Assembly (NCBI RefSeq): GCF_004341885.1
Contig: NZ_SLVX01000023.1
Location: 1-64,000, forward strand
Direction of reading: 5' to 3'
DNA: 64,000 nt
Source of the DNA: Shinella granuli
Lineage (GTDB): Bacteria > Pseudomonadota > Alphaproteobacteria > Rhizobiales > Rhizobiaceae
A program made the position numbers and the translations under genes. The notes below the pieces were generated by a model. It was not told where the DNA came from, ran no database searches, and saw only the letters and a list, made by a program, of their open reading frames with translations. Numbering within the stretch: position 1 is the first letter of the stretch; the number at the start of each line of letters is the position of its first letter. Below are positions 17,812 through 37,373 of this stretch, piece by piece.

Positions 17812-18675
17812 TCAGCAGAGTGTGCGGAAACGCTCGACCATCACATCGAGAACCGCGCCGGGATCCCGCTTCCACCAGTTGTTCGCCGAGAAGATCTCGA
17901 CCTCGCAGGGGCCGGCATAGCCCGCACCCTCGACGCCGGCACGGATCGCCTTGAGATCGGCAACGCCATCGCCCATCATGCCGCGATCCAGCAGCACGTC
18001 GGTCGTATCGGCGAGCCAGTCGCAGAGGTGGTAGCCGAAAATCCGCTCCGGCCCGGCGCGTTGCATCTGGACATCGATCCCCCTGTCCCACCAGACATGA
18101 TAGACGTCGACCGCGACGCCCAGGCTCGGCGCACCGACCGCATCGCAGATATCGAGGGCGTCCCGCAGCGTCACCAGGCACGAGCGGTTGCCGGCATAGA
18201 CCGGGTTCAGCGGCTCGAGCGCCAGCCGGACGTTGCGTTGGGCCGCGTAGGGCGCGATCTCGCCGACGCGGTCGGTGACGATCTTCAGGCTCTCGGCCGT
18301 GCCTTTCGTGCCGGGATGCACGCCGCCGACCACGATCGTCAGCACGGCAGCGCCAAGGCCCGCCGCCATGTCGATGGAGGCCTTCGCACCGTCGATGACC
18401 GCCTGCCGGTCCGTCGCCTCGGCGCCGACGAGAAACGGCGTCCGGCAGAGCCCCGCGACGGACAGCCCGGCCGCCCGCACCCGCTCGCCGATTTCCACCG
18501 CCCGCGAACCGATTTCGCGGCGCCAGAAGACAATCGAGCCGAAGCCGCGCGCTGCACAGGCGTCGATCACGCGCTCCGGCGACCAGCCCGCGCCGTGGCC
18601 GTCCAGGTTGTGGCCCAGGCTCGCGGTGTTGAGCGCGAGCGCCGAATGATCCGTCGAGAAGTCGCGCATCGTCAT
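17812..18675 (-). CDS. Sugar phosphate isomerase/epimerase family protein (TIM barrel)
   Basis: Xylose-isomerase-like TIM-barrel protein of 287 residues. Conserved metal-ligand positions are visible in [10 protein letters not shown] (Glu), DVYHVWWD (Asp, His), YHLCDW (His) and CEVEIFS (Glu). Family members isomerise or epimerise keto-sugars, or dehydrate inosose. The start at 18675 overlaps the stop of the DUF993 gene by four bases (ATGA), indicating coupled synthesis and perhaps consecutive reactions. Confidence 0.87.
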
Positions 18676-21767: not shown

Positions 21768-21783
21768 GTAACTATCTAGTTAC
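21768..21783. promoter_or_regulatory. TetR-type operator, site A (acyl-CoA dehydrogenase operon)
   Basis: GTAACTATCTAGTTAC: perfect 7-bp inverted repeats with a 2-bp spacer, directly upstream of the dehydrogenase ribosome site. It is the best copy of an element found at four promoters in this window and is assigned by inference to the TetR regulator at 36714. Confidence 0.75.
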
Positions 21784-21872
21784 ATACATTTGAAGCTGAT
21801 CTTCCGTCAAGATGGAAAAACCTCCGCACGACGAGGAAGCCGCTTGCACAGGGGTTCAACGCATGCATATTA

Positions 21873-21888
21873 TTCACTATCTGGTTAC
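21873..21888. promoter_or_regulatory. TetR-type operator, site B (aldo/keto reductase)
   Basis: TTCACTATCTGGTTAC matches site A at 13 of 16 positions and lies 15 bases upstream of the divergent aldo/keto reductase start, just before its ribosome site. Sites A and B together cover both directions of this 150-base divergent promoter region. Confidence 0.65.
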
Positions 21889-21903
21889 TTATGGAGGAGA
21901 ACC

Positions 21904-22920
21904 ATGCATCCTGGAGAAAAGCGGAAATTCGGCCGGACGGATCTGGAGGTGACGGCCTTCGGTTTCGGGACCGCCCCGCTCGGCAATATCTTCCGCGAGA
22001 TCGACGAGGCGACGTCGGAAGCGATGTTCGCGCGCGCCTGGGAGGCCGGTGTGCGCTTCTTCGACAGCGCACCCATGTATGGGCATGGGCTCGCCGAGCT
22101 TCGCACCGGCCATGCCCTGCGCTGGAAGAAGCGGGACGACTTCATCCTCGCTTCCAAGGTCGGCCGCCTGCTGCGCCCGGCCAGGCGCGAGAGCATCGAT
22201 TTCGCGCCCTGGACGAATGCCGCCCCCTTCACCCTGCATTTCGACTACAGCTATGACGGCACGATGCGCGCCTTCGAGGACAGCCTGCAAAGGCTGGGGC
22301 TGGAGCGCATGGACATGTGCTTCATCCACGATATCGACGTCTTCACGCGCGGAAGCGAGCAGCCGGAGGTGTTCGAACAGGCGATGGACGGCGCCTGGCG
22401 GGCACTGGAGCGGCTGCGGTCGGAAAAGGTCGTGACGGCGATCGGCGTCGGGGTGAATGAATGGCAGGTCTGCCACGAGGCCTTGCTGCGCCACGATTTC
22501 GACGGATTCCTGCTCGCCGGTCGCTATACGCTCCTCGAACAGGAGGCGCTCGACAGTTTCCTTCCGCTCTGCGCGACACGCGGCGCGGCGGTCGTCGTGG
22601 GCGGCGGCTTCAATTCGGGCATCCTCGCCACCGGCGCGGTGGAGGGTGCGAAGTACAATTACGCGCCGGCCCCGCGCGATGTGATGGAAAAGGTCGCGAA
22701 GATCGAGGCCGTCTGTGCCGACCATGGCGTGCCGCTTGCCGCCGCGGCCCTGCAATTCGTCGTCGCCCATCCCGCCGTCCCGTCCTTCATGGCGGGCACG
22801 CGCACGATCGAACAGCTCGACCAGAACCTTGTCTGGTTCTCCCATCCGATCCCGGCCGATTTCTGGGCGGACCTCAAGAAGAAGGGCTTGCTGCGCGAGG
22901 ACGCGCCCGTTCCGGCCTGA
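21904..22920 (+). CDS. Aldo/keto reductase (aldose 1-dehydrogenase/pyridoxal dehydrogenase-like)
   Basis: NAD(P)-dependent oxidoreductase of 338 residues. It starts near FGRTDLEVTAFGFGTAPLGN and has the catalytic tetrad in FFDSAPMYGHG (Asp, Tyr), LASKVGR (Lys) and CFIHDID (His). Its pattern is nearest to D-threo-aldose 1-dehydrogenase, L-fucose dehydrogenase and pyridoxal 4-dehydrogenase relatives, which oxidise sugar hemiacetals to lactones. GGAGGAG precedes the ATG. It is transcribed alone, divergently from the acyl-CoA dehydrogenase operon, and convergent with the glycerate kinase gene. Confidence 0.9.
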   Translation: MHPGEKRKFGRTDLEVTAFGFGTAPLGNIFREIDEATSEAMFARAWEAGVRFFDSAPMYGHGLAELRTGHALRWKKRDDFILASKVGRLLRPARRESIDFAPWTNAAPFTLHFDYSYDGTMRAFEDSLQRLGLERMDMCFIHDIDVFTRGSEQPEVFEQAMDGAWRALERLRSEKVVTAIGVGVNEWQVCHEALLRHDFDGFLLAGRYTLLEQEALDSFLPLCATRGAAVVVGGGFNSGILATGAVEGAKYNYAPAPRDVMEKVAKIEAVCADHGVPLAAAALQFVVAHPAVPSFMAGTRTIEQLDQNLVWFSHPIPADFWADLKKKGLLREDAPVPA

Positions 22921-22931
22921 AGCCCGGTCTG

Positions 22932-22956
22932 CCCGCGCTGCAAAAAGCGGCGCGGG
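22932..22956. terminator. Hairpin between convergent aldo/keto reductase and glycerate kinase genes
   Basis: A 7-bp CCCGCGC / GCGCGGG stem with an 11-base A-rich loop lies between the two stop codons. There is no strong T run on either strand, so termination is only suggested. Confidence 0.35.
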
Positions 22957-22958
22957 GA

Positions 22959-24218
22959 CTACCGAATCAGAATTGCCCGGAAATCGTTGACATTGGTCCC
23001 GGTCGGGCCGGGCACGAACAGGTCTCCCAGACGGTGGAAGGCTGTCCAGGCATCGTTGCCGGCAAGCAGGGCGGCCGGGTCGGCACCCATTCCACGCAAA
23101 CGCTGCATGCTGGCGCCGTCGGTAAAGGCGCCCGCATTGTCCTCGGAACCGTCGATGCCGTCCGTATCGGCGGCGAGCGCGGCGAACGGGACGCCCTCGC
23201 CGGCAAGCGCGAGCGACAACAGGAATTCCGTATTGCGGCCGCCCTTGCCCTGCCCCCGGATCGTCACCGTCGTTTCGCCGCCCGACAGGATGACGACCGG
23301 GCGCGCGAACGGGCGGCCACGGCCGGCGACTTCGCGGGCGATGGCCGCATGCACGCGCGCGACGTCCCGCGCCTCGCCCTCGATGCTATCGGACAGGATG
23401 ACCGCCGGCACGCCGCGCGCTTCCGCCCGCGCGGCGGCGGCCTCCAGGGAGAGACGCGCCGAAGCGACGACGTGAACCGCATGGGCGGCAAAGACCGGAT
23501 CGTCTGGGGACGGCGGCTGCCCCTCCTCTCCGGCAAGCCAGGTTTCCACCGCCTCCGGCAGCCTGATGCCCCAGGTCTTGACCAGCGCCCGCGCCTCCAC
23601 GCGATCGGCGGCGTCCGGTATGGTCGGCCCACTGGCGACCTGCGCCGGATCGTCGCCCGGCACGTCGGAGACGACCAGCGTCACGACCTTCGCCGGATGG
23701 CAGGCCGCGGCAAGCCGGCCGCCCTTGATGCCGGAGACCTGCTTGCGGATCGCATTCATGACGGAGATCGGCGCGCCGCTGGCAAGAAGCGCGCTGTTCA
23801 TCGCCGCCTCGTCCGCCAGCGTGAGAGGCCCGGGCGGACAGGGAAGCAACGCCGATCCGCCGCCGCAGATCAGGGCGACCACAAGGTCGTCTTCACCGAG
23901 GCCTTCCACCGCCTCGAAAAGCGCGCGCGAGGCCTGCAGCCCTGCCGCATCCGGCACGGGATGGGCGGCTTCGAGTACGCGGATGCGCTGGCAGGGGGCG
24001 GCGTAACCGTAGCGCGTCACCACCACGCCTTCGAGCGGCCCGTCCCACAACCTTTCGAAGGCCGCCGCGAGCTGCGCCACGCCCTTGCCCGCGCCGATGA
24101 CGACGGTGCGCCCGCGCGGCCGGGCTGGAAGACGGGCACGGAGCGCCGCCTCCGGATCGGCGGCCTCGACCGCCGCACCGAAGAGTTCGGCAAGGAATTC
24201 TTTGTCGCCTGGTTTCAT
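22959..24218 (-). CDS. Glycerate 2-kinase, MOFRL family (GckA/TtuD-like)
   Basis: Protein of 419 residues in the glycerate kinase family once called hydroxypyruvate reductase TtuD; it phosphorylates D-glycerate to 2-phosphoglycerate. Visible motifs are VIGAGKGVAQLAAAFE, LICGGGSALLPCPP, the long SGGPT-like segment VASGPTIPDAADR and the C-terminal MOFRL stretch with SGGETTVTIRG, GRNTEFLLSLA and AADTDGIDGSEDNAGAF. It ends a three-gene unit after the CoA-transferase and hydratase genes, from which it is separated by a palindromic repeat. Confidence 0.92.
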   Translation of the reverse strand: MKPGDKEFLAELFGAAVEAADPEAALRARLPARPRGRTVVIGAGKGVAQLAAAFERLWDGPLEGVVVTRYGYAAPCQRIRVLEAAHPVPDAAGLQASRALFEAVEGLGEDDLVVALICGGGSALLPCPPGPLTLADEAAMNSALLASGAPISVMNAIRKQVSGIKGGRLAAACHPAKVVTLVVSDVPGDDPAQVASGPTIPDAADRVEARALVKTWGIRLPEAVETWLAGEEGQPPSPDDPVFAAHAVHVVASARLSLEAAAARAEARGVPAVILSDSIEGEARDVARVHAAIAREVAGRGRPFARPVVILSGGETTVTIRGQGKGGRNTEFLLSLALAGEGVPFAALAADTDGIDGSEDNAGAFTDGASMQRLRGMGADPAALLAGNDAWTAFHRLGDLFVPGPTGTNVNDFRAILIR

Positions 24219-24257
24219 GACCTGTGTCCCACGGGTCGAATGTATTGCCGATGTTCC

Positions 24258-24359
24258 AGAGCATTTCCGCTTTTCTCCAAATCGCGAAAACGCTCTATCT
24301 CCTTGTTTTTCCGCATTTCCGGACGCAAAATCGCTTCGCACTTCTGCTGGAAATGCTCT
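24258..24359. repeat. Rhizobial intergenic palindromic element
   Basis: About 102 bases bounded by 11-bp inverted ends (AGAGCATTTCC / GGAAATGCTCT) with internal partial palindromes around CGCGAAAACGCTCTA and GCAAAATCGCTTCGC. This resembles a repeat widespread between genes in Rhizobiaceae. Its right end overlaps the stop codon of the enoyl-CoA hydratase gene. Confidence 0.7.
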
Positions 24360-25131
24360 ATTGTCCGAATCGGGCCGGGCGCTTCTGCCGATAGGCTGCA
24401 AGGCCCTCCGCCAGATCGGCTGAGGAGGCAGCGACGGCGCCGGCCAGAGCCTCGACCACCCGCTCGCTCTCCTCGCCCTCGGCGGCGTTGACCAGCATCT
24501 TGGTGAGTTCCGTCGCACGGGTAGACCGCTGCAACACGCGCGCCGCGGCAATCTGCGCGGCCGCCGCGCCCTCTCCCGTCGCCACGACCCGGTCCACCAG
24601 CCCGAGCGCCAGCGCGTCCCCGGCGGAAAACATCTCGCCGAACAGCGCCATGCGGCGGACAAGACCCGCACCGAACCGCCGCGCGGCCCGCTGCGTGCCC
24701 GACCAGCCGGGAATGATGCCGAGGCCGGGCTCCGGCTGGCCGATCTTCACATGCGCCTCGGCGATGCGCAGGTCCGCGCAGGCGGCAAGCTCCAGCCCGC
24801 CGCCGAGCGCATGCCCGTTCAGCACCGCGATCAGCGGCACGGTGAGGCGCGCCAGCGCATCGAAGGCATCGTGCCCATCGCGCAGCCAGCGGCGGGAGAA
24901 CGTCTCGGCGTCGAGGCTGCTCCAGGCCTCGATATCCCCGCCCGCGCAAAAGGATTTTTGCCCCTCGCCCGTCAGGATGGCGACGCGGGCATCCGAACGT
25001 TCGATGGTGCGACAGGCCTGCAACAGCGCATCGACCATGTCCGCGTCGATCGCGTTCAGCTTTTCCGGGCGGCGAAGGGTCAGCCGCGCGATGCGGTCCG
25101 CGATGACGAGTTCGATGCGCGGATCGCTCAC
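24358..25131 (-). CDS. Enoyl-CoA hydratase/isomerase family protein
   Basis: Crotonase-fold protein of 257 residues. The oxyanion-hole segments SFCAGGDIEAW and ALGGGLELAA are present, and PEPGLGIIPGWSGTQR holds the first catalytic glutamate; a second glutamate at the usual position is not evident, so the exact reaction is open. The GTG start at 25131 overlaps the CoA-transferase stop (GTGA). The TAG stop is formed by the end of the adjoining palindromic element. Confidence 0.87.
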   Translation of the reverse strand: MSDPRIELVIADRIARLTLRRPEKLNAIDADMVDALLQACRTIERSDARVAILTGEGQKSFCAGGDIEAWSSLDAETFSRRWLRDGHDAFDALARLTVPLIAVLNGHALGGGLELAACADLRIAEAHVKIGQPEPGLGIIPGWSGTQRAARRFGAGLVRRMALFGEMFSAGDALALGLVDRVVATGEGAAAAQIAAARVLQRSTRATELTKMLVNAAEGEESERVVEALAGAVAASSADLAEGLAAYRQKRPARFGQ

Positions 25132-26699
25132 AGGCTGAGCCCCATGGTCTCGGCCCGGAACAGCGCATCGTCCATGACCTTGAGCCCCTTCGAGACCCGC
25201 AGCGGCGTTGCCGCCTGGTCGAGAATATCGCGCTGGAGGTCGAGGCCGGGGGCGATTTCGGTGACGACAAGCCCGTCCGCATCGAGCCGGATCACGCAGC
25301 GCTCGGTGACATAGGTGATGTCCTGTCCCTGCGCCTGGGCGCGCTTGCCGGAGAAACTGACCTGGTCGACCTTTTGCACGAACTTGGCGATGCGGCCCTC
25401 CTTGTCGATCACCAGGCGCCCATCCTCGACATGCATCTTCGCCCCCGCATTGAAATTGCCGGAGAAGACGATCTTTTTCGCCCGGGCGGTGATGTCGACA
25501 AAGCCGCCGGCGCCGGCGGTGCGGTGCGGCGTTGCGGCAAGACGGCTGACATTGACCGAGCCTTCGGCGTCGATTTCGAGGAAGGACAGCAGCGAGCAAT
25601 CGAAGGCGCCCGCCTGGAAATAACAGAACTGGTGCGGCGAGGCGACGAAGGCTTCCGCATTGGAAGCACAGCCGAACTTGAAATCGAGCAGCGGCACGCC
25701 GCCGACGGCGCCCTGCTCGATCACCCAGGTCACCTTGCCATGAAGCCCTTCCTCGATGAGGATGCGCGGCACATTGGCCGAAATGCCGAAGCCGATATTG
25801 ACCGCCCAGTCCGCCTTGAGTTCCTGCGCCACGCGACGGGCGATGACCTTGCCAACATCCAGCCCCGGCAGGCGGAACGTTTCGAGCGGCCGGAAAAGCT
25901 CGCCCGATATCGCCGGATCATAGGGCGTCGCGGTCGTCTGCAACTGGTCGGGCGCCTCCACGATGACATCGACGAGGATGCCGGGCACCCGCACATCATG
26001 CGGCCGCAGCGTGCCGCTCGCCGCCACGCGCTTGACCTGCGCGATGACGAGGCCGCCGGAATTGCGCGCGGCGAGCGCCATCTCCATCGCGCCGAGCGTC
26101 GCGCCCTCCTGCTCGAAGGTAAGGTTGCCCTTCTCGTCGGCGGTCGTCGCCCGGATGATCGCCACGTCGGGGCGGATGGCCGGGAAATGCAGCCACTCCT
26201 CCCCCTCGAAGGAAACGCGCTTGACGAGCGGCGCGGCGCGCGCGCTGGCATTCATGGCGCAGCCGTCCTCAACGGGATCGACGAAGGTCTCCATGCCGAC
26301 CTGGGTCAGCACGCCCGGGCGCTTGGCGGCCCCCTCGCGCAGCATGTCGAAGACGATGCCTGACGGCACGTTCCAGGCGGCAAGCTCTTCCTTCAAAATC
26401 ATCTGCCAGACGAGCGGCGGTTCGGCATTGCTCGGCCCGGAGGGATAGGAGCCGCCGATGATCTTCACCAGCATGCCGGGCTTGGCGATGTGATCGACGC
26501 CTTTGGTGCCGAAGAAATCGCCGGCCGCGATGGGGTGGACAGAGGTGAGCCCGCGCGGATAACCCTCGCGATCGAAACGCTCGCCGAGCGCCTTCAGCAC
26601 GGCATCGGGGCAGCACAGGCCCGAGGAAGAATTGACGGCGACCACCGCCCCATCCCTGACGAGCCGGGCCGCCTCCTCCGCGGTCTTCACCTTCTTCAT
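25128..26699 (-). CDS. Family I CoA-transferase (propionate/acetoacetate CoA-transferase type)
   Basis: Fused alpha-beta CoA-transferase of 523 residues, similar in layout to YdiF and propionate CoA-transferase, moving CoA between acyl-CoA and a free carboxylate. N-terminal KVKTAEEAARLVRDGAVVAV, the glycine-rich VHPIAAGDFFGTKG and the second-half stretch EIDAEGSVNVS match the family. The ATG at 26699 has GGAGG eight bases upstream; an in-frame start at 26726 lacks one. It heads the unit with the hydratase and glycerate kinase and faces operator site C. Confidence 0.9.
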   Translation of the reverse strand: MKKVKTAEEAARLVRDGAVVAVNSSSGLCCPDAVLKALGERFDREGYPRGLTSVHPIAAGDFFGTKGVDHIAKPGMLVKIIGGSYPSGPSNAEPPLVWQMILKEELAAWNVPSGIVFDMLREGAAKRPGVLTQVGMETFVDPVEDGCAMNASARAAPLVKRVSFEGEEWLHFPAIRPDVAIIRATTADEKGNLTFEQEGATLGAMEMALAARNSGGLVIAQVKRVAASGTLRPHDVRVPGILVDVIVEAPDQLQTTATPYDPAISGELFRPLETFRLPGLDVGKVIARRVAQELKADWAVNIGFGISANVPRILIEEGLHGKVTWVIEQGAVGGVPLLDFKFGCASNAEAFVASPHQFCYFQAGAFDCSLLSFLEIDAEGSVNVSRLAATPHRTAGAGGFVDITARAKKIVFSGNFNAGAKMHVEDGRLVIDKEGRIAKFVQKVDQVSFSGKRAQAQGQDITYVTERCVIRLDADGLVVTEIAPGLDLQRDILDQAATPLRVSKGLKVMDDALFRAETMGLSL

Positions 26700-26729
26700 C
26701 GCCGAAACCTCCGTTCTCCATTGCATTAA

Positions 26730-26745
26730 GTAACTAACTAGTTAT
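26730..26745. promoter_or_regulatory. TetR-type operator, site C (CoA-transferase operon / second aldo/keto reductase)
   Basis: GTAACTAACTAGTTAT: 7-bp inverted repeats with one mismatch, in the divergent region between the CoA-transferase (start 26699) and the aldo/keto reductase (start 26814). It matches site A at 14 of 16 positions. Confidence 0.72.
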
Positions 26746-26813
26746 ACATTAATTGCGGAAAGATCAATCCGCCGCCCGCGATTTTCCATCGCGCCGGCAG
26801 CCAAGGAGGAGGC

Positions 26814-27632
26814 ATGAACATCTATTTCCAGAAGAGCTTTCAGCGGGGTTTCGGCACCTTTCCATTGAAGGGTGACGATCTCAGGAACGCCATCGACGCC
26901 GCCATTGCCGCCGGCTACCGGGCTTTCGATACGGCGCAGATGTACGGCAACGAGGCTGAAACCGGCGCAGCGCTGGCCGCCTGCGGCGTCGCGCGTGAAA
27001 AGCTCTGCATCACGACGAAGGTGCATCCGGACAACTACACCGAAGCGGCCTTTCTCCCCTCGGTCGTGGCCAGCCTGAAGGCCTTGCAGATCGATCGCGT
27101 CGACGTGCTTCTGCTCCACTGGCCGCCGGCGGATGGCGACGTCGCCCCCTCCCTCCGCCTGCTGCAATCCGCCAGGGAGGCGGGCCTTGCGGGCGCCATC
27201 GGCGTCTCGAACTACACGGCACGCATGATGCATGTGGCCCGCGCCACCGTCGATGGGCCGCTCGTCACCAACCAGGTGGAATTCCACCCGCTGCTCGATC
27301 AGCGGAAACTGCTCGCGGCAGCCACGGAGACGGGCATTCCGCTGTCATCCTACGCCTCGGTGGCCCGCGGCGAAGTGTTCAAGCACGGCCTCTTCGCCGA
27401 GATAGGCACGGCTTACGGCAAGTCCGCCGCGCAGGTCGTGCTGCGCTGGATTCTCCAGAAGGGCGTGCCGCTCAACACCATGTCGACGAAGCCGGAAAAT
27501 ATCCGGGCGAATTTCGAGATCATGGATTTCACGCTGTCGTCCATCGACATGGACCGCATCGATGCCCTGACGGCGACCGGTCACCGCATCGTCAAGACCG
27601 GGCTTTTGCCCTGGGTTCCCGAATGGGATTGA
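26814..27632 (+). CDS. Aldo/keto reductase (2,5-diketogluconate reductase-like)
   Basis: NAD(P)H-dependent reductase of 272 residues in the AKR5/DkgA-like branch. It shows GFGTFPLKGDDL, the catalytic Asp and Tyr in FDTAQMYGNE, Lys in ITTKVHP and His in LLLHWPP, plus the cofactor-binding STKPENIRANFE. It has a strong AGGAGG ribosome site. It is transcribed alone, divergently from the CoA-transferase operon, with operator site C between them. Confidence 0.9.
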   Translation: MNIYFQKSFQRGFGTFPLKGDDLRNAIDAAIAAGYRAFDTAQMYGNEAETGAALAACGVAREKLCITTKVHPDNYTEAAFLPSVVASLKALQIDRVDVLLLHWPPADGDVAPSLRLLQSAREAGLAGAIGVSNYTARMMHVARATVDGPLVTNQVEFHPLLDQRKLLAAATETGIPLSSYASVARGEVFKHGLFAEIGTAYGKSAAQVVLRWILQKGVPLNTMSTKPENIRANFEIMDFTLSSIDMDRIDALTATGHRIVKTGLLPWVPEWD

Positions 27633-27638
27633 CGCAAA

Positions 27639-27660
27639 AGGGCGGCCGCAAGGCCGCCCT
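27639..27660. terminator. Bidirectional terminator between convergent aldo/keto reductase and GMC genes
   Basis: A 9-bp perfect stem (AGGGCGGCC / GGCCGCCCT) with a four-base loop lies between the stop codons. Read on the minus strand it is followed by TTTTG, so it best serves the seven-gene minus-strand operon. Confidence 0.7.
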
Positions 27661-27676
27661 TCCTGCCTGCGATGGA

Positions 27677-29275
27677 TCAGGCATTGCCGCGGATCATGTC
27701 CGCGGCCTTTTCGCCGATCATGATCGTCGCCGCATTGGTGTTGGAGCCGACAAGGCTCGGCATGGCGGAACTGTCGCAGATGCGGATGCCGTCGAGGCCG
27801 TGCACGCGCAACTGCGGATCGACCACCGCCATCTCGTCCCGTCCCATCTTGCAGGTGCAGGTGGGGTGGTAGGAGGTGCGGCCGTACTGGCGGGTGTAGG
27901 CGACATAGTCGTCCTGCGTGCGCACATTCCTGCCAGGGAAATGCAGCGTCTTGATGTATTTTTGCAGCGATGGCTGAGCAAAGATCTCCTGGCTGATTTT
28001 CACGCCCTCGACCGAGATTTTCACATCCTCCGGATCGGCCAGGAAATTCGGGTCGATGACCGGCAGGGCGCGCGGATCGGCCGAGCGCAGGCTCACCGTT
28101 CCACGGGATTTCGGCCGCAGCGTATAGGAATTGAGCGTGATGCCGGAGGAGCCCTTCGGCACGCCGGGAACGCCCGCTTCCGCCCCCGCCCCTGCGAGAA
28201 AGTGGAATTGCAGGTCCGGCGTGGGGTTCGCCTTGTCGCCGTACCAGAAGGCGCCGCCCTCCACCACGTTGGAGGTGATGGGGCCGGACTTGAACAGCGT
28301 ATATTGAATGCCCGCCCAGATCGACCAATGCAGCCTGTTGTACTTGTCGAGGCTGTCGTGGTTCTTCAGTTCCGCGACGATATCGACGCCGAAATGGTCC
28401 TGGAGGTTCTGGCCGACGCCGGCCATGTCCTGCACCACGTCGATGCCGTGGTTTTTCAGCGCATCGGCCGGGCCGACGCCCGAGAGCATCATCAGCTTCG
28501 GCGTGCCGATGGCGCCCGACGTGACCAGCACCTCGCTCTCCGCCCGCGCCGTCATGCGCTTGCCGTCGACCGCGTAGTCGACGCCCACGGCGCGGCGCCC
28601 CTCGAAGACGATGCGCAGGACGAGCGCGCCGGTGACGACCGTGAGGTTCTTGCGCTTGAGGGCCGGGCGCAGATAGCCGACGGCGGCCGAGCAGCGGCGG
28701 TTGTCGCGCGTCGTCGTCTGGTAGACGCCGGCGCCCTCCTGTACCGGGCCGTTGAAGTCCGGGTTGTAGGGAATGCCGAATTCCTGGCAGCTCTGCACGA
28801 AGGCCCGCGTCATGCGCTGCGGTTCGGGAATGTTCGAGACGCCGAGCGGGCCATCCGTGCCATGCCAGGCGCCGGACAGAATAGCGTTGCCCTCCGAGCG
28901 CAGGAAATATTTCTGGATGTCCCGGAAACCCCAGCCCTCGGCGCCTTCCTCGACCCAGCGGTCATAATCGCCGGGAACGCCGCGCGTGAAAACTTCCGCA
29001 TTGATGGAAGAACCGCCGCCGAGCACCTTTGCCTGCGCGTAAAGGATCTCGCGGTTGTTGGCATGTTTCTGGGGCGCGGTCTTCAGGCCCCAGGTCAGCG
29101 GACCCGTCGTCATCTTGGCGAAGCCGACGGGCATGTGGATGAGCGGATTGGTATCGCGCCCGCCCGCCTCGATGAGGCAGACGCGCGCGGACGGGTTTTC
29201 CGAAAGCCGCGCCGCCAAAACGCAGCCAGCGCTGCCGCCGCCGACGATCACATAGTCATAGCCGGCGGACATCAT
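27677..29275 (-). CDS. GMC family oxidoreductase (choline dehydrogenase-like)
   Basis: FAD-dependent alcohol dehydrogenase of 532 residues. The N-terminal FAD motif is YVIVGGGSAGCVLAARL, followed by GGGSSINAEVF. The C-terminal active-site region has HPTCTCKMGRDEM and SNTNAATIMIGEKAAD. GMC enzymes oxidise primary alcohols, often to aldehydes. The start at 29275 overlaps the aldehyde dehydrogenase stop by four bases, so the pair probably acts in sequence. It is the last gene of the importer operon. Confidence 0.92.
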   Translation of the reverse strand: MMSAGYDYVIVGGGSAGCVLAARLSENPSARVCLIEAGGRDTNPLIHMPVGFAKMTTGPLTWGLKTAPQKHANNREILYAQAKVLGGGSSINAEVFTRGVPGDYDRWVEEGAEGWGFRDIQKYFLRSEGNAILSGAWHGTDGPLGVSNIPEPQRMTRAFVQSCQEFGIPYNPDFNGPVQEGAGVYQTTTRDNRRCSAAVGYLRPALKRKNLTVVTGALVLRIVFEGRRAVGVDYAVDGKRMTARAESEVLVTSGAIGTPKLMMLSGVGPADALKNHGIDVVQDMAGVGQNLQDHFGVDIVAELKNHDSLDKYNRLHWSIWAGIQYTLFKSGPITSNVVEGGAFWYGDKANPTPDLQFHFLAGAGAEAGVPGVPKGSSGITLNSYTLRPKSRGTVSLRSADPRALPVIDPNFLADPEDVKISVEGVKISQEIFAQPSLQKYIKTLHFPGRNVRTQDDYVAYTRQYGRTSYHPTCTCKMGRDEMAVVDPQLRVHGLDGIRICDSSAMPSLVGSNTNAATIMIGEKAADMIRGNA

Positions 29276-30768: not shown

Positions 30769-30793
30769 GAGATCTCCTCCACTTCGATGGTGT

Positions 30794-31828
30794 TTACGCC
30801 GAAACGGCGATTTGCGTCTTCAGGTGCTGCGGCCGGTCGCCGAGGGTTTCGAAAGCCTCCTGGATTTTTTCCAGCGGATAGCTCGCCTTCGTGAAATCCT
30901 CCGTATGGAACCGGCCATGCGACAGGAGGGTCAACGCATCGTGCATATCCTCCCCCATGCCCGCGACGGAGCCCTTGAGGCTCGCCTCCTCCAGAACCGT
31001 GCGGAGAATATCGATCGGCACGGTCTCGCCGGGCGGCGTGATGCCGAAGAAGGCGACGTGCCCGCCGCGGCGCGCCAGGCCAAATGCCTGCTCATAGAGC
31101 TTCCTGTTGCCGACGCTTTCGATCACCAGGTCCGCGCCGCGCCCGCCGGTCATCCGCAGCACGGTTTCCCCGAGTTCGGCCGGGTCGGACACCGCCGCAT
31201 CCGCCCCCGCCGCAAGCGCCATCCGGCAGCGCTCGGCCGAGAGATCGGCGACGATGATGGGCGCGGCACCGACAAGCCGCATCATCTGCACATGCAGGTT
31301 GCCGATCGGCCCGGCGCCGAAGATGACCACCGATTGGCCGAACGCCGCCTTCGCCTTGCGCGCCGCACGAACGACGCAGGCGACCGGTTCGGTGAGCACG
31401 AGAACCTCGTCGGCGATATCGGCCGCGACGGGGATGGCGAGCCGGGCGGGCACGGCGACGAATTCGGCGAAGGCGCCATCCCTGGTGATACCGACCTGGG
31501 TGACCTCGGCGCAGTTCAGCACCTCGTTGCGGCGGCACCAGAAGCAGGTACCGCAGCCGATATTGATATCGACGACGACCCGCGTGCCGGCCGCAAGGTG
31601 GCGGACATTGGCGCCGCATTCGGCAATCGTGCCGCAGAATTCATGACCGGGGACCAGCGGCAGCCGGTCCGCGGCGTAGTGACCGTTGAAGATGTGGATA
31701 TCCGTGCCGCAGATGCCCGTGCGCGTCACCCGCACCAGCACATCGTCCGGGCCGATGGACGGCACCGGGACCGCACGGATCTCGAAGCGTTTCGGCGCGG
31801 TGAGGACGGCGGCTTGCATGGTGTTCAT
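30794..31828 (-). CDS. Zinc-dependent alcohol dehydrogenase (sorbitol/threonine dehydrogenase-like)
   Basis: Medium-chain dehydrogenase of 344 residues. Catalytic zinc ligands appear in GICGTDIH and PGHEFCGTIAE, the structural-zinc region in CGTCFWCRRNEVLNC and the NAD motif in IFGAGPIGNLH. It probably oxidises a secondary alcohol of a polyol or sugar. A GAGG site six bases before the ATG at 31828 favours that start; a GTG at 31840 overlapping the permease stop is an alternative. Confidence 0.91.
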   Translation of the reverse strand: MNTMQAAVLTAPKRFEIRAVPVPSIGPDDVLVRVTRTGICGTDIHIFNGHYAADRLPLVPGHEFCGTIAECGANVRHLAAGTRVVVDINIGCGTCFWCRRNEVLNCAEVTQVGITRDGAFAEFVAVPARLAIPVAADIADEVLVLTEPVACVVRAARKAKAAFGQSVVIFGAGPIGNLHVQMMRLVGAAPIIVADLSAERCRMALAAGADAAVSDPAELGETVLRMTGGRGADLVIESVGNRKLYEQAFGLARRGGHVAFFGITPPGETVPIDILRTVLEEASLKGSVAGMGEDMHDALTLLSHGRFHTEDFTKASYPLEKIQEAFETLGDRPQHLKTQIAVSA

Positions 31829-31836
31829 GGCCGGCC

Positions 31837-32778
31837 TCACTTCACGGTGCGCAGCTTGGCGCGGTCGATGGTCAGCGCGATGGCGACGATCAGCACGACA
31901 CCGAAGACGATCTGCTGGCGTGTCGCGTCGATCTCGAAATAGAGCATCGAGGCGCGGATGACGGCGACGATGAGCGTGCCGACCACCGTATTGGCCACGC
32001 CGCCGACACCGCCCGTCAACGGCGTGCCGCCGACCAGCACGGCGACGATGGCCGGCAGCAGGAAGCCGTTGGCAATGGTCGGCGCGCCGCCGGAAAGCTT
32101 GACCGCAAAGAGCAGGCCGGCGATGGCGGCAAGCGCGCCGGATATCGCGAAGGCGAGGATTTTGTAGCGCGCGACATTGAGGCCCGAGGCGGCGGCGGCA
32201 AGCTCGCCCGCGCCGACCGCCTTCAGGGCGCGCCCCAGCGTCGTGCGGCGCTCGATGAACAGGCAGAGGACAACGAGCACGGCGGCGATCAGCAGTTCAT
32301 GCGGCACGCCCCAGGTGCGGCCGATCATCCAGCCGAAGGTCTCGTTGCGCTGGGCGGCGTCCATGTTGAGCGCGCGCTGGCCGGACAGCCATTGCGCAAT
32401 GGAGAAGGCGACGCCGCCGACGGCGAGCGTCGAGATGAAGGACGGCACGAAGAGCCGTGTCGTCACATAGCCGGAGAGCATGCCGAGCAGGAAGCCGGCC
32501 ATCACGCAGAGCACGGCGACCCACGCCCCCATCGAGGCGAGATAGACCGAGGCGACGACTGTCACCATGTTGGCCATGGACTGGGCCGAAAGGTCGATGC
32601 CGCCGATATAGATGGCGAAGGTGAGCCCCAGCGCCATGATGAACAGCGGCACGATATCGCCGGCAATGCCGAGCAGGTTCGACGGGCGCAGGAAGCCGGG
32701 ATCGTTGACGCCGACGATGGCGACGAGCACGACCAGCGTGATCCAGGGCAGGTGCGGTTTGAGGCGCTGAATATCCAT
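31837..32778 (-). CDS. Sugar ABC transporter permease (BPD_transp_2), second copy
   Basis: Inner-membrane permease of 313 residues in the RbsC class. It has the motif IGGIDLSAQSMANMV and the C-terminal GGTPLTGGVGGV loop with many hydrophobic segments. With the other permease of this operon it likely forms a heterodimeric channel, unlike the single-gene homodimers of many ribose-type systems. It follows the ATPase gene by 8 bases. Confidence 0.91.
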   Translation of the reverse strand: MDIQRLKPHLPWITLVVLVAIVGVNDPGFLRPSNLLGIAGDIVPLFIMALGLTFAIYIGGIDLSAQSMANMVTVVASVYLASMGAWVAVLCVMAGFLLGMLSGYVTTRLFVPSFISTLAVGGVAFSIAQWLSGQRALNMDAAQRNETFGWMIGRTWGVPHELLIAAVLVVLCLFIERRTTLGRALKAVGAGELAAAASGLNVARYKILAFAISGALAAIAGLLFAVKLSGGAPTIANGFLLPAIVAVLVGGTPLTGGVGGVANTVVGTLIVAVIRASMLYFEIDATRQQIVFGVVLIVAIALTIDRAKLRTVK

Positions 32779-32786
32779 CTTGTCCC

Positions 32787-34292
32787 TCAGATCATGTAGT
32801 GCAGGAGGTCGAAGGGCGTGGGCTTGGCACCCGGCTCGCAGGAAAACTGCTTCTGGATGCGCCCGTCCTTGACGACGATGATGGTGTGCGACAGGCCGAT
32901 CGCCTCTTCCAGCGTATCGGCGACCAGCACGATGCCGACACCCGCCGCGCTCATGGCGCGGATCATGTCGTAGACGTCTTCCTTGGCGCCGATGTCGAGG
33001 CCGCGCGTCGGGTGGTCGAGCAGCATGATGTCGGAGCCGCCGGAGCGCCATTTGGCGAGAACCACCTTTTGCTGGTTGCCGCCGGAGAGATTGCCGCAAT
33101 CGGCGAACTCGGAATGCGCCTTGATCGACAGTTTCCTGATCCAGTCGCGCGCCAGCGCCCGTTCTTCGGCAACGCGCAGCACCCCGCCGCGCGAATGGTT
33201 CTTCATCTGCGAGAGCGTCATGTTCTCATAGACGTTCATGCCGGCGACGATGCCCTCGACCTTGCGCTCGCGCGGCACATAGCCGACGCCATGGGCGACC
33301 GACTGGCGCGGAGAATAGCCGTTCGCCGCCGCGCCCTTAATCGTTAGGCGGCCGGTCACCGGCGTCAGCATGCCGTAGATGGTGCGCAGGATCGCCTCGC
33401 GGCCCGAGCCTTCCGTGCCGACGAGACACAGGACTTCGCCGGCATGCAGCTTCAGCGAGATATCCTGGATGCGGCCGGGAAGGCCGACGCCCTCCATCTC
33501 GACCAGCCTTTTCGACGCATCGAACGGCTTTTGCAGGTGCTCGCGGTAATATTGCTTGTCGACATTGCGGCCGACCATCTTGTGCTGGATGGCCTCGGCC
33601 GTCGCGCCGCCGCGCTCCACCACGTCGACCACCTCGCCGTCCTTCATCACATAGATGCGGTCGGAAAGGTCCATCACCTCGTCCATGCGGTGCGAGACGA
33701 AGATGAAGGAGGCGCGGGTCGTCAGTTCGCGCACCAGCTTGAAGAGCAGCGCCACCTCTTCCTTCGAGAGGACCGAGGTCGGCTCGTCGAGCAGGATGAC
33801 GAGGTCGCCCTTCACCCGCTCCTCCAGCGTCAGCACCTTGGCAAGCTCGACGAGCTGGCGCTGGGCGAAGGAGAGCTTTGACGTCACCATCGCCGGGTCG
33901 ATATCGAGCTTCACCTTGGCAAGCTGCGCCCTGGCGGCGCTCGCCATCGCCTTCCAGTCGACGACGCCGAAGCGGACGAACTGGCGCTCGTAGCCGAGGA
34001 AGATGTTCTCCATGACGGAGAGGTTCGGGATCAGGGACTGTTCCTGGAACACCATCCCGATGCCCTTTTCCATCGCCTGGCGCGGATTGGCAAAGCGGAC
34101 GGGCGCGCCCTTGATGAGGACCTGGCCGCCATCCGGCTGGTAGGCGCCGTAGATGACCTTCATCAGGGTGGATTTTCCGGCGCCGTTCTCGCCCACCAGC
34201 CCGACGATCTCGCCGCGCCTGATGTGGAAATCGATCGCCTTCAGCGCATGGACGCCGGGGAATTTCTTGTCGACGGCTTTCAGCTCATACAT
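32787..34292 (-). CDS. Sugar ABC transporter ATP-binding protein (two-domain, RbsA type)
   Basis: Cytoplasmic ATPase of 501 residues with two nucleotide-binding domains. The first has Walker A GENGAGKST and Walker B ILLDEPTSVL with a degenerate signature (LSFAQRQLVELAKVL). The second has the altered P-loop VGTEGSGREAIL, signature NLSGGNQQK and IMLLDHPTRGLD. This asymmetric pattern is normal for CUT2 sugar ATPases. It is placed between the two permease genes. Confidence 0.92.
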   Translation of the reverse strand: MYELKAVDKKFPGVHALKAIDFHIRRGEIVGLVGENGAGKSTLMKVIYGAYQPDGGQVLIKGAPVRFANPRQAMEKGIGMVFQEQSLIPNLSVMENIFLGYERQFVRFGVVDWKAMASAARAQLAKVKLDIDPAMVTSKLSFAQRQLVELAKVLTLEERVKGDLVILLDEPTSVLSKEEVALLFKLVRELTTRASFIFVSHRMDEVMDLSDRIYVMKDGEVVDVVERGGATAEAIQHKMVGRNVDKQYYREHLQKPFDASKRLVEMEGVGLPGRIQDISLKLHAGEVLCLVGTEGSGREAILRTIYGMLTPVTGRLTIKGAAANGYSPRQSVAHGVGYVPRERKVEGIVAGMNVYENMTLSQMKNHSRGGVLRVAEERALARDWIRKLSIKAHSEFADCGNLSGGNQQKVVLAKWRSGGSDIMLLDHPTRGLDIGAKEDVYDMIRAMSAAGVGIVLVADTLEEAIGLSHTIIVVKDGRIQKQFSCEPGAKPTPFDLLHYMI

Positions 34293-34300
34293 GGCGCGCC

Positions 34301-35266
34301 TCACTTCACGAAGGAAACCATCTTGCGGTCGGTCGAAAGCACGACGGCAAGAATGACGAGCAGGCCGAGCACGCCGTCCTGGAGGAAATCCGGCAGGCCG
34401 ATGACGACCATGCCGTTGTCGATGACATTGACGATGAGGACGCCAACGAGCGCGTTCCACACGCCGCCGATGCCGCCCCACAGCGCCACGCCCCCGACCA
34501 CGACGGAGGTGATGGAGACGAACATGAAGTTCGCCCCCGTCACCGATTCCGCCTGCCCGATGCGGGCGACGACGAGGATTGCGGCGATGGCATAGAACAC
34601 GCCGGCCAGCGCAAAGCCGGTGACGCGGACGCGGGTGACGTTGAGGCCCGAGGCATGCGCCAGATCCTCGCCGCCGCCGACGGCATAGAAGTTGCGCCCG
34701 AGCGTCGTGTGGGTCTGGATGAACCAGCCGACGAAGAGGAAGAAGGCCGCGACATAGACCATCAGCGGAAAGCCGAGCCAGCGCACCGTCAAGAGGCCGC
34801 GGAAGGCGGCGTCGCCGACCTTCACGATATCGCCGCCGGTGAGGAGGATCGCCGCGCCCGTGCCGACGAAGCCCATGGCAAGGCTCGCCATGAAGGACGG
34901 GATCTTCAACTTCACATGGACCAGCCCGTTCAAAAGCCCGATCAGGCCGCCGAGCACCAGCACCAGCGGAATCGCGATCCAGCCGAACCCGGCGAGCGAG
35001 CCGCCGAGCTGGGCGAAGATGAAGGCGAAGGAGACCGCCGTGAGCGAGACCGTTCCCTCCATGGAAAGGTCGATCGATCCCATGACGATGATGAAGGTGA
35101 CGCCGATGGCGACCATCAGCGCCGGGGCCGCCGCAATCGCGATGCGGGCAAAGTTCCGCAGCGAGAAGAAGGTCGGATTGAGCGCGGTGAAAAAGATCAC
35201 CAGCGCGATCAGCACCAGCAGCGGCGCCCATTTGATCAAGGTTTCGCGCGATAGGCGACGTGTCAC
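34301..35266 (-). CDS. Sugar ABC transporter permease (BPD_transp_2), first copy
   Basis: Inner-membrane permease of 321 residues in the RbsC class, with IVMGSIDLSMEGTVSL and the C-terminal VGGVALWGGIGGVWNA loop. A GTG at 35266 is the best start because GAGGGG lies eight bases before it; another GTG at 35275 is too close to that site. It follows the binding-protein gene after a 74-base gap that contains a hairpin. Confidence 0.89.
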   Translation of the reverse strand: MTRRLSRETLIKWAPLLVLIALVIFFTALNPTFFSLRNFARIAIAAAPALMVAIGVTFIIVMGSIDLSMEGTVSLTAVSFAFIFAQLGGSLAGFGWIAIPLVLVLGGLIGLLNGLVHVKLKIPSFMASLAMGFVGTGAAILLTGGDIVKVGDAAFRGLLTVRWLGFPLMVYVAAFFLFVGWFIQTHTTLGRNFYAVGGGEDLAHASGLNVTRVRVTGFALAGVFYAIAAILVVARIGQAESVTGANFMFVSITSVVVGGVALWGGIGGVWNALVGVLIVNVIDNGMVVIGLPDFLQDGVLGLLVILAVVLSTDRKMVSFVK

Positions 35267-35306
35267 GTCAGACACCCCTCTTCCAGGAAAATTTCTCAGG
35301 AGAAGC

Positions 35307-35331
35307 GGCGGCAGCGCGTGCGGCTGCCGCC
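35307..35331 (-). promoter_or_regulatory. Intercistronic hairpin after the binding-protein gene
   Basis: A 9-bp perfect stem (GGCGGCAGC / GCTGCCGCC) just after the binding-protein stop and before the first permease. Such stems often stabilise the upstream mRNA segment or partially terminate, giving more binding protein than permease. No T run follows, so full termination is unlikely. Confidence 0.55.
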
Positions 35332-35340
35332 TTGGCCCTA

Positions 35341-36456
35341 TTAGGCCTTGTACTGGATCTGGCCGTTCGACGGCCCCCAGAAATCTTTCCAGTCGTAGGC
35401 CGGCACGGAATCGAGGTACTTCGCCTTGAATTCCGCCGCGTCCCTGGCCGTGACGAGGATGGTCGGGCCGTAGAATTCGCGGTGCTCCTTCGGCTCCTCG
35501 GAAGGCTTGAAGGTGCCGATGGCGGCATGGTAGGCGAGCGCCGCGCTGATGCCGCCGCCCCAATGCGGATTGGTGAAGACGGTGGCGAGCAGCTGGCCGT
35601 CCATGACCATCTGCACGGCCTCCGGATTGCCGTCATAGGCGACGATCGGCATGTCCTCGATGCCCTCGGCGCGCAGCGCCTCGATGACGCCATAGGCGAT
35701 GTTGTCGTTGGCGCAGTGCACGCCCTTGATCCTGTCGCCGTAGCGCGTAAGGAACGAGGCCATCAGGGCGGCGCCCTTCTGGGTGTCCCAGTCGGCGGGC
35801 TGCGCGTCGAGAAGCTCGATGTTCGGGAAATCCTTCAGCGCATTCTGGAGGCCGGCGAGGCGCTCGACGGCCGGGTTGTTGGCCGCGATGCCGCCGAGAT
35901 GGACCACGCCGCCCTCGCCGCCCATCGCCTCGAAGAGGATGCGGGCGGTCTCTTCCGCCGGCTTCTCGTCTGACCAGGTCATGTGCGAGACGTAGTTGTC
36001 GCCGAAATCCCACGGATGCAGGTCATCGGTCTTGTTCCAGATCGTGGAAATATAGGCGCCGGCCGCCTGGACCGCCTCGACGACCGGGCGGGCGTTCGGG
36101 CTGTCATTGGCATCGCAGGCGATGGCGCAATTGCCGTTGTTCTTGGCGAGGAAGGCCTTGATGTCGGACAGCGACTTTTCCGTCGAGCCCTCGTTGATGA
36201 GGCTGACCAGCGCGCTCTTCGGCCTGCCGAGCGATTCCACGAAGGCCTCGCCGCCGGCGATGACCGAGTTCCAGTAGGCGGACGCCCGGTCGCGATAGCT
36301 CCAGGCGATCGCCGGGTCCGTCAGCGCTGCCGCGGCCGTCCCGCGGCCGAACACGCCCGGCACCGCGGCAACGCCGAGACCGGCGGCCGTGGCGAAGAGA
36401 AAGTTGCGGCGACTGATCGTCTCCCGCTCGATGAAATCCTTGATGAAGGTCGACAT
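35341..36456 (-). CDS. Sugar ABC transporter binding protein with Tat-type signal
   Basis: Periplasmic type I binding protein of 371 residues. The N-terminus carries SRRNFLF (residues 15-21) and a hydrophobic stretch, a twin-arginine export signal that is less usual for this class. The mature part has NNGNCAIACDANDSPNARPV, GVHCANDNIAYGVIEAL and VAYDGNPEAVQMVMDG, as in ribose/xylitol-type binding proteins. It is first in a seven-gene operon with two permeases, ATPase and three alcohol/aldehyde oxidising enzymes, so the ligand is probably a polyol or sugar. Operator site D lies about 107 bases upstream. Confidence 0.91.
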   Translation of the reverse strand: MSTFIKDFIERETISRRNFLFATAAGLGVAAVPGVFGRGTAAAALTDPAIAWSYRDRASAYWNSVIAGGEAFVESLGRPKSALVSLINEGSTEKSLSDIKAFLAKNNGNCAIACDANDSPNARPVVEAVQAAGAYISTIWNKTDDLHPWDFGDNYVSHMTWSDEKPAEETARILFEAMGGEGGVVHLGGIAANNPAVERLAGLQNALKDFPNIELLDAQPADWDTQKGAALMASFLTRYGDRIKGVHCANDNIAYGVIEALRAEGIEDMPIVAYDGNPEAVQMVMDGQLLATVFTNPHWGGGISAALAYHAAIGTFKPSEEPKEHREFYGPTILVTARDAAEFKAKYLDSVPAYDWKDFWGPSNGQIQYKA

Positions 36457-36562
36457 TGGCTCCTCCGGTTCCCGTTTGAAAAATCCACTTTCGCGTTACG
36501 GCAGATCTGGCAGGCCACAATGCCCGGATGTCCGCTGCCAACAACACGCGCCACTCCACTAA

Positions 36563-36578
36563 CGCACTAACTAGTTAC
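36563..36578. promoter_or_regulatory. TetR-type operator, site D (sugar importer operon / tetR)
   Basis: CGCACTAACTAGTTAC carries a perfect right half and core of the shared palindrome, with a degenerate outer left half. It sits in the 257-base divergent region between the importer operon and the regulator gene and could control both. Otherwise the region 36457-36713 shows no gene. Confidence 0.65.
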
Positions 36579-36713
36579 TGCATTATTGCCATTGCCGTCA
36601 AGTGGGGTACACTGGCTGCGAGCGCATCGCGCGGTTCAGGCGTTTTTGACGCCGCGCGATTCGTGCGTATATGACTGGAAGTGTGGAAACCTCGACCGCG
36701 GCGGAGAACGGCC

Positions 36714-37373
36714 TTGAGAACGACAAGCGAGCAGCAAGACAAACCCGGCCGCAAGCCGCGCATCCGCGATGCGGAAGCCACCAAGGCGCGCATTCTTGAT
36801 GCTGCCAAAAAGGAATTCGCCAAGAACGGCTTGGGCGGCGCGCGCGTCGATGACATCGCCGAGAAGGCGAAAGCCAACAAGCGCATGATCTACCACTATT
36901 TCGAGAGCAAGGAGGGCCTGTTCCGGACGATCCTGGAGGAAGTCTATCTCGACATACGCAGCGCCGAGCAGAAGCTGCACCTGGAGGATCTCGAGCCCAC
37001 CGCCGCACTCGAAAAACTTGTGCGGTTCACATGGGAATATTACCTGAAAAACCCGGAATTCCTGACACTCGTGAACAGCGAGAACCTTCACCGCGCAAAG
37101 CACCTGAAAAAATCCGAGATCGTCAAGGCCTCCAGCCGCAAGCTCGTCAGCCTGGTCTCCAGCATCCTCGAGCGGGGCGTGAAGGCGGGCGTCTTCCGCG
37201 ACGGCGTCGACCCCGTGCAGCTCAACATCACCATTGCCGCCGTCGGCTATTACTATCTGACAAACCGCTTTACCGGCTCAATCATCTATGAGCGGGACCT
37301 GATGGCCAAGGAGGCCTTGGAGGAGCGCATCCAGTTCAACATCGAGACAATCATGCGCCTGGTCGCCGTTTGA
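36714..37373 (+). CDS. TetR/AcrR family transcriptional regulator
   Basis: One-component repressor-like protein of 219 residues. The N-terminal helix-turn-helix region spans about residues 18-65 with ILDAAKKEFAKNGLGGARV, DDIAEKAKANKRMIYHYFES and KEGLFRTIL. The C-terminal ligand domain (about 75-215) is helical with EYYLKNPEFLTLVNSEN. A TTG at 36714 with GGAG seven bases upstream is the favoured start; a GTG at 36681 would add 11 residues. It is divergent from the sugar-importer operon, with operator site D between, and is the likely controller of sites A-D. Confidence 0.92.
   Translation: MRTTSEQQDKPGRKPRIRDAEATKARILDAAKKEFAKNGLGGARVDDIAEKAKANKRMIYHYFESKEGLFRTILEEVYLDIRSAEQKLHLEDLEPTAALEKLVRFTWEYYLKNPEFLTLVNSENLHRAKHLKKSEIVKASSRKLVSLVSSILERGVKAGVFRDGVDPVQLNITIAAVGYYYLTNRFTGSIIYERDLMAKEALEERIQFNIETIMRLVAV

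Follow-up and report, generated by a model that had tools for sequence, protein, structure and literature searches.

A 16-bp palindrome in three divergent promoter regions marks a probable TetR regulon joining sugar-type import to acyl-CoA genes in Shinella granuli

Results

Four palindromes and 20 genes in one cluster

We analyzed a 64-kb stretch of the Shinella granuli genome (contig NZ_SLVX01000023.1, positions 1 to 64,000; hereafter the window), in which a 16-bp palindrome recurs between divergent genes for sugar-type import, acyl-CoA metabolism and a TetR-family regulator. A scan allowing up to 3 mismatches confirmed four copies of GTAACTANNTAGTTAC (= GTAACTAnnTAGTTAC), designated here putative operators 1 to 4. 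Operator 1 (21768..21783) is a perfect palindrome, with 0 mismatches, and precedes the start codon of the acyl-CoA dehydrogenase gene (21750) by 17 bp. Operator 2 (21873..21888), in the same intergenic region, is imperfect (3 mismatches) and stands 4 bp ahead of the aldo/keto reductase 1 Shine-Dalgarno sequence; each of these two sites has the ribosome-binding site of one flanking gene 4-6 bp away. Operator 3 (26730..26745; one mismatch) lies between the genes of a CoA-transferase and aldo/keto reductase 2, and operator 4 (36563..36578; 3 mismatches), with a perfect right arm and a degenerate left arm (CGCACTA), lies between a substrate-binding protein gene and tetR. An earlier reading of this DNA from its letters alone (the sequence-only reading) had given these four coordinates exactly, and the window holds no further copy at 3 or fewer mismatches. 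It had also assigned the sites to four divergent promoter regions controlling about sixteen genes. The regions are indeed divergent, but they number three, and can serve six transcription units with 7 + 1 + 3 + 1 + 7 + 1 = 20 genes.

These genes were defined by homology to an annotated plasmid record (NZ_CP084753, locus L010 below) and by family scans, and those named without another match rest on these two sources. Leftward from operator 1, on the minus strand, runs a seven-gene operon. It begins with acyl-CoA dehydrogenase (ACAD, 20608..21750) and continues with a short-chain dehydrogenase/reductase (SDR) of the '3-ketoacyl-ACP reductase' type (19832..20611; NF009386, above cut-off), a DUF993 protein with a barrel of the dihydrodipicolinate synthase (DHDPS) type, a candidate class I aldolase (18672..19820; PF06187, E 7e-179; a relative of structure 4dnh), a sugar phosphate isomerase/epimerase-like TIM barrel (SPI, 17812..18669; PF01261), the beta (17045..17794) and alpha (16092..17021) subunits of electron transfer flavoprotein (ETF), and ETF-ubiquinone oxidoreductase (ETF-QO, 14422..16086; 93% identical to the annotated L010 protein). 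Aldo/keto reductase 1 (AKR1, 21904..22920; PF00248) diverges from it on the plus strand. A three-gene operon leaves operator 3 on the minus strand and encodes a fused acyl CoA:acetate/3-ketoacid CoA-transferase (CoAT, 25128..26699; PF01144; FadX-like, below the model cut-off), an enoyl-CoA hydratase/isomerase family protein (ECH, 24358..25131; PF00378) and glycerate kinase (GLK, 22959..24218; DUF4147 and MOFRL), with aldo/keto reductase 2 (AKR2, 26814..27632; DkgB-like, below the model cut-off) on the plus strand.

The second seven-gene operon, also on the minus strand, starts with a CUT2-type sugar-binding protein (SBP, 35341..36456; a relative of 2rjo, E 5e-79). Behind it come ABC permease 1 (PERM1, 34301..35266), an AraG/RbsA-like sugar ABC ATPase (32787..34292), ABC permease 2 (PERM2, 31837..32778), a zinc-type alcohol dehydrogenase (ADH, 30794..31828), an aldehyde dehydrogenase (ALDH, 29272..30768; best model betaine-aldehyde dehydrogenase, below cut-off) and a GMC oxidoreductase (27677..29272; best model choline dehydrogenase, below cut-off). 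On the plus strand lies tetR, a probable repressor gene (36714..37373; PF00440 and PF17938), the start codon of which is uncertain (TTG at 36714 or GTG at 36681). An attempt to name the pathway from NCBIfam models gave one above-cut-off match among the 20 proteins, that of the SDR to the generically named NF009386; for the other 19, no model reached its cut-off among the best 25 matches per protein.

The palindrome is rare in the assembly

No copy of the palindrome at 3 or fewer mismatches appeared in 100 dinucleotide shuffles of the window. The whole assembly (6.59 Mb, 97 contigs) holds nine places at this threshold, four of them the window sites, whereas a control pattern, the palindrome read backwards, has 50. 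Both of the copies with at most 1 mismatch are in the window (21768 and 26730). Three of the five places outside the cluster are inside reading frames of at least 80 codons, and the surroundings of four of the five were inspected. Two of the five overlap on contig C3 as imperfect palindromes with 2 and 3 mismatches (C3:344117 and C3:344121, together 344117-344136, or L086:9617-9636); the pair stands away from the cluster, and no reading frame of at least 80 codons covers it.

Sites mostly precede first genes, and among operon-internal genes only ALDH

From the 430 relatives that a contig scan with the TetR protein returned, we took the best 80; with 26 further loci, the window included, these made 106 loci. 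For each gene class we scored distinct 160-bp upstream regions at 3 or fewer mismatches unless stated otherwise. Matches with less than 55% identity or 60% length were left out, as were upstream regions truncated at the end of a contig and repeats of an identical sequence. Sites were found upstream of most genes that are first in a unit: ACAD in 22 of 24 upstreams, AKR1 in 18 of 19, CoAT in 19 of 22 and AKR2 in 18 of 21. For SBP the counts were 40/77 at 3 and 74/77 at 4 mismatches, and for tetR 35/91 and 64/91. By comparison, operon-internal genes other than ALDH had no sites (GMC 0/74, ADH 0/72, PERM1 0/75, ATPase 0/74, PERM2 0/73, ECH 0/21, GLK 0/9, SDR 0/21, DUF993 0/20, SPI 0/19, ETF beta 0/6, ETF alpha 0/5 and ETF-QO 0/4), and these classes stayed at zero when four mismatches were allowed. 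Scrambled palindromes (n = 60) gave mean matches of 0.00-0.80 per class, and of 0.12-0.80 in the six first-gene classes.

The cluster and its sites in relatives

Sites were present in all three regions in S. meliloti R28 pSymA, two Ensifer adhaerens plasmids and L010, the DNA being about 80-87% identical. L010, which of the plasmids matches best (87% of the query covered at 87% identity), is labelled Roseateles sp. XES5 (UNVERIFIED_ORG); its TetR is 92% identical, as in Shinella, and the Roseateles label may be wrong. In S. meliloti 1021 the cluster occupies pSymA from about 765 to 787 kb, and no match for ETF-QO was found in it. Each of its three regions has a site, the mismatches numbering 1, 2 and 3; pSymA sites are at 770893, 775803 and 786645. 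A second, AKR1-proximal site with 2-4 mismatches occurs at 11 loci (L010, L012, L013, L046, L047, L049, L053, L055, L062, L066 and L076) and was not found at 4 mismatches in S. meliloti 1021, R28, L011 or L048. Where the cluster is split, sites are kept before the separated parts: in L053 a site precedes an ALDH gene about 1 kb from ADH, and in L055 two sites lie between AKR1 and ACAD, apart from the rest of the cluster. L062 has two sites in each of both divergent regions.

Among Rhodobacterales, Paracoccus versutus pTAV3 and a 49-kb Sagittula plasmid carry the cluster with 1-4-mismatch sites in all three regions. The latter, from the marine Sagittula sp. P11 (L076), holds the greater part of the cluster, and no gene for ETF or glycerate kinase appeared in the stretch examined; its plasmid-borne state suggests that the genes move horizontally together. 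At least 15 of the 20 genes are present, differently arranged, in Janthinobacterium (14 in one stretch, with DUF993 just outside), and this reordering speaks for the set being a single functional unit. The site preceding its SBP gene (L069:6621-6640) reads GTAACTATCTAGGGAGTTAC, a palindrome four bases wider. Further operator-like sites with 1-4 mismatches lie downstream of tetR at L010:30162-30177, L012:30611-30626, L013:29065-29080 and L011:31982-31997; that of L010 stands before a second GMC oxidoreductase gene. In other species the regulon may thus extend past the gene set of the window.

The motif follows the TetR protein across genomes

We then compared 199 genomes of the family, S. granuli included, using a strict motif of at most 1 mismatch. 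Of these, 92 encode a TetR relative (E 1e-40 or better) and 17 have the strict motif, at 25 places. It occurred in 8 of the 11 genomes with a TetR at least 66% identical and in 9 of the other 188 (p 7e-8, uncorrected for relatedness), and at 20 of the 25 sites a TetR relative or a DUF993 gene lay no more than 30 kb away. The 16-mer therefore tracks tetR and these operons in the assembly, in the relatives and across the 199 genomes, as the check proposed by the sequence-only reading required, and it is not a sequence common at unrelated genes, the outcome that this reading had named as refuting it.

Among more remote regulators, some TetRs about 47-55% identical stand beside DUF993 genes with GTAAC-N6-GTTAC sites in L088, L091, L095 and L096. 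These four represent a wider group of TetR and DUF993 clusters, and L091 and L095 also hold Gfo/Idh genes. A DUF993 gene lay within 30 kb of the TetR gene in 8/11 places at 66% identity or more, 3/5 at 50-65%, 5/12 at 47-49%, 7/18 at 44-46%, 4/35 at 41-43% and 1/45 at 36-40%. We also compared 26 TetR rows from 25 hand-picked loci (L038 = L093; L061 contributed two rows). A GTAAC-N6-GTTAC site with at most 1 mismatch lay no more than 1.5 kb away in 9 of the 15 rows in which residues 54-56 read KRM, against 0 of 11 for the others (p 0.002). As the rows were grouped after the data had been viewed, this apparent covariation is a lead and not a test.

The TetR protein

The protein has an N-terminal TetR_N domain (PF00440, 55 bits) and a C-terminal TetR_C_29 domain (PF17938, 140 bits), both above cut-off, and its predicted structure has a mean predicted local distance difference test score (pLDDT) of 88.7. 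RutR, the uracil-binding regulator, is the nearest structure, at about 27% identity over the aligned part, and E. coli RutR shares with our protein TetR_N and an all-helical ligand domain. However, the match to the RutR family model (64.7 bits) is far below its cut-off of 368, and none of the 20 cluster genes is named as a pyrimidine gene. ACAD operons are often under acyl-CoA-binding TetRs. We do not favor an acyl-CoA as the inducer, because the TetR model is closest to RutR, yet FadR with stearoyl-CoA is among the matches listed. With local TetR repressor regulons of catabolic clusters the system shares a divergent, apparently autoregulated regulator gene and palindromes at several cluster promoters.

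DUF993 is a candidate aldolase

The DUF993 protein matches PF06187 over its full length with 595 bits (cut-off 24), and its structural model is of middling quality (pLDDT 73.8). At the head of the 50 Foldseek matches listed was 4dnh (SMc04132 of S. meliloti 1021), deposited as an uncharacterized protein and 60% identical over the structural alignment; DHDPS enzymes and relatives, including N-acetylneuraminate lyase and 2-keto-3-deoxyarabonate dehydratase, came after it. Compared with the DHDPS/N-acetylneuraminate lyase superfamily, DUF993 is 13-18% identical and about 80 residues longer. In DHDPS the Schiff-base lysine sits on the sixth barrel strand. Lys225 of DUF993, in a GIK/GVK motif on the sixth strand as counted from the model, is invariant in 17 of 17 DUF993 sequences, and the modeled fold thus makes the protein a candidate class I aldolase of the DHDPS type. 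The open-access PubMed Central (PMC) literature yielded no paper that mentions DUF993 or PF06187.

A second DUF993 gene lies in the same genome, at about 269 kb of contig C3 (L085:14090-19997), adjoining genes for a LacI regulator, a Gfo/Idh oxidoreductase, a CoA-transferase (69% identical) and a hydratase (54%). No operator-like site at 3 or fewer mismatches was present in the 20 kb examined around it. Elsewhere, DUF993 genes have Gfo/Idh dehydrogenases and an isomerase as neighbors.

Predicted pathway

The cluster most likely breaks down a sugar- or polyol-like compound. The CUT2-type transporter together with ADH, GMC and ALDH suggests alcohol-to-acid oxidation of such a substrate, while CoA-transferase, ACAD, hydratase, SDR, ETF and ETF-QO suggest a beta-oxidation-like sequence. 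No thiolase or beta-keto acid cleavage enzyme was found among the 20 genes. We propose tentatively that the steps would follow this order: the CUT2-type transporter would import a small sugar- or polyol-like compound; ADH, GMC and ALDH would oxidize an alcohol to an acid, which CoA-transferase would activate; ACAD would dehydrogenate the acyl-CoA, its electrons leaving via ETF and ETF-QO; hydration and then oxidation by the SDR would yield a 3-keto intermediate; the aldolase-type DUF993 enzyme would cut a carbon-carbon bond; and a C3 fragment would return through glycerate kinase to glycolysis. On this scheme acetyl-CoA and a glyceryl unit would be the products of a C5 acid, for instance 4,5-dihydroxyvalerate.

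It is also quite possible, if short of probable, that the same regulon works in another order. A sugar would first be oxidized to a keto-sugar, which DUF993 and the isomerase-like barrel would cleave, after which only one fragment would pass through ALDH, CoA-transferase, hydratase and ACAD and the other would end as glycerate. This order would suit the association of DUF993 with Gfo/Idh dehydrogenases and an isomerase elsewhere, as well as R. daejeonense and the second S. granuli cluster, which pair DUF993 with Gfo/Idh, CoA-transferase and hydratase and show no ACAD in the stretch examined (that of S. granuli ends inside the hydratase gene). It sits poorly with the window itself, where ACAD heads an operon shared with SDR, DUF993, isomerase and ETF and where no Gfo/Idh gene is found among the 20.

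Near the cluster, at 40074-41093 of the window, a gene for a histone-deacetylase-family protein (PF00850) adjoins one for a class-III aminotransferase.

Discussion

Altogether, motif placement and its co-occurrence with the regulator indicate that the palindromes are very probably operators of the adjoining TetR and that the six units form one regulon. The single TetR regulon put forward by the sequence-only reading is thereby supported, since the motif is conserved in the promoters and tracks TetR.

Several observations weigh against this conclusion. At operator 4, the site next to tetR, no SBP upstream (n = 77) has fewer than 3 mismatches, and 27 of the 91 tetR upstreams have no site at 4 mismatches within 160 bp. 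Only in L056, L134 and L166 is the SBP side of these 27 also without a site, and in the remainder the site may lie beyond the scored 160 bp. Although ALDH is an internal gene in the window, 12 of its 71 upstreams contain a site (18 at four mismatches); a gap precedes ALDH in both cases inspected (L053 and L011), and the site may be an extra promoter in some lineages. The ACAD upstream of L153 has no site, and the other ACAD miss, L079, is probably a second, 64%-identical copy, the 86% copy having a 2-mismatch site. Single scrambles reached 11 matches for ACAD and 10 for AKR1, and also 21 for PERM2 and 13 for ATPase, because related upstreams share chance matches. Furthermore, divergent neighbors share one region and the loci are related, so that the six classes are not independent trials; the result that carries weight is therefore the contrast between first and internal genes within the same loci. 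Across genomes, the eight with both motif and TetR represent five genera and are related rather than independent samples. Five of the 25 strict sites (G168, G012, G185, G078 and G034) are away from TetR or DUF993 clusters, with single weak matches or none to the 20 cluster proteins around them, and three of the 11 TetR genomes (G156, G087 and G082) have no strict site, having looser ones with 2-4 mismatches near cluster genes (L052, L056 and L079). The sites of Rhizobium sp. NLR16a (TetR 73%) all have 4 mismatches. Caballeronia (TetR 57%) has one site with 4 mismatches beside tetR, in a neighborhood that includes DUF993 (62%), SDR (47%), isomerase (42%), CoA-transferase (39%) and hydratase (37%), and no site at 3 or fewer mismatches was found in P. 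yeei, Chelatococcus or R. daejeonense. Finally, promoter predictions close to the operators are weak, with counts of 1, 0 and 1 where 0.5, 0.2 and 0.2 were expected.

Binding, repression and release by an inducer are what we infer from the sequences and their spacing. Without inducer, TetR would occupy the four operators in the three divergent regions and block six units, namely the ACAD operon, AKR1, the CoAT operon, AKR2, the operon for SBP, ABC transporter, ADH, ALDH and GMC, and tetR. The regulator would control its own gene through the degenerate, presumably weaker operator 4, and a small metabolite of the imported compound would free it from the operators. Repression fits because the ACAD operators end 12-58 bp before the start codon (median 19 in 22 upstreams; 17 bp in the window) and because operator 2 touches the -10 element predicted for AKR1, although the prediction is weak (1 found, 0.5 expected).

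A different regulator might instead bind the palindrome, with tetR a mere linked passenger. TetR binding is itself deduced, and the site adjoining tetR is among the least perfect. This explanation is nevertheless very unlikely, given that the motif follows TetR through the 199 genomes and that remote TetRs keeping KRM, although grouped post hoc, have a nearby site in 9 of 15 rows where those with changed residues have none. We regard it as similarly improbable that TetR activates rather than represses some of the promoters; the CoAT and SBP sites are farther upstream (median gaps of 30 and 104 bp), but a protein bound as close to the start codon as at the ACAD operators would block polymerase, not recruit it. 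That the palindromes are chance or structural repeats with no regulatory role can be practically dismissed, as we found no point in its favor and it is contradicted by their absence from shuffles, near-uniqueness in the genome, first-gene placement and co-occurrence with TetR.

If the palindromes are TetR operators, as we consider very probable, the logic of the regulation is ordinary and the pathway, as far as searched within the open-access PMC literature, is uncharacterized. The nearest described system is the CoA-dependent deoxyribonate catabolism of Klebsiella michiganensis, for which the parts of the source consulted list a CoA-synthetase, hydroxyacyl dehydrogenase, thiolase, CoA-transferase and glycerate kinase (PMC6365646). 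The two have in common, on that partial account, a sugar-derived acid handled as a CoA thioester, a dehydrogenase step, a CoA-transferase and an exit through glycerate kinase (PMC6365646), and the window cluster indeed holds the glycerate kinase and CoA-transferase that the deoxyribonate pathway needs. They differ in that neither the CoA-synthetase nor the thiolase of the deoxyribonate route is annotated in the window cluster, which adds the ACAD-ETF set and DUF993; no ACAD or ETF is listed for the deoxyribonate route in the portion of the source consulted (PMC6365646). The sequence-only reading had not recognized the pathway as a described one. In that respect it stands, as we found no description of the cluster or pathway in the open-access PMC literature, but the logic resembles that of the deoxyribonate route (PMC6365646). 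We raise, as a speculative proposal, a new route in which a polyol- or deoxysugar-derived acid would pass through a CoA cycle resembling beta-oxidation, be cut by DUF993 as a class I aldolase instead of by a thiolase and exit as glycerate, under a single TetR subfamily that would have retained GTAAC-N6-GTTAC operators near DUF993.

The regulon marks out a set of about 20 genes as acting together, and this set occurs in Rhizobiales and Rhodobacterales, including pSymA of the model symbiont S. meliloti 1021. It also opens a way into the DUF993 family, which has a solved structure but for which no function was found in the open-access PMC literature. The predicted pathway would link sugar-type import to acyl-CoA chemistry and, if TetR represses, loss of tetR should turn the cluster on before its substrate is known.

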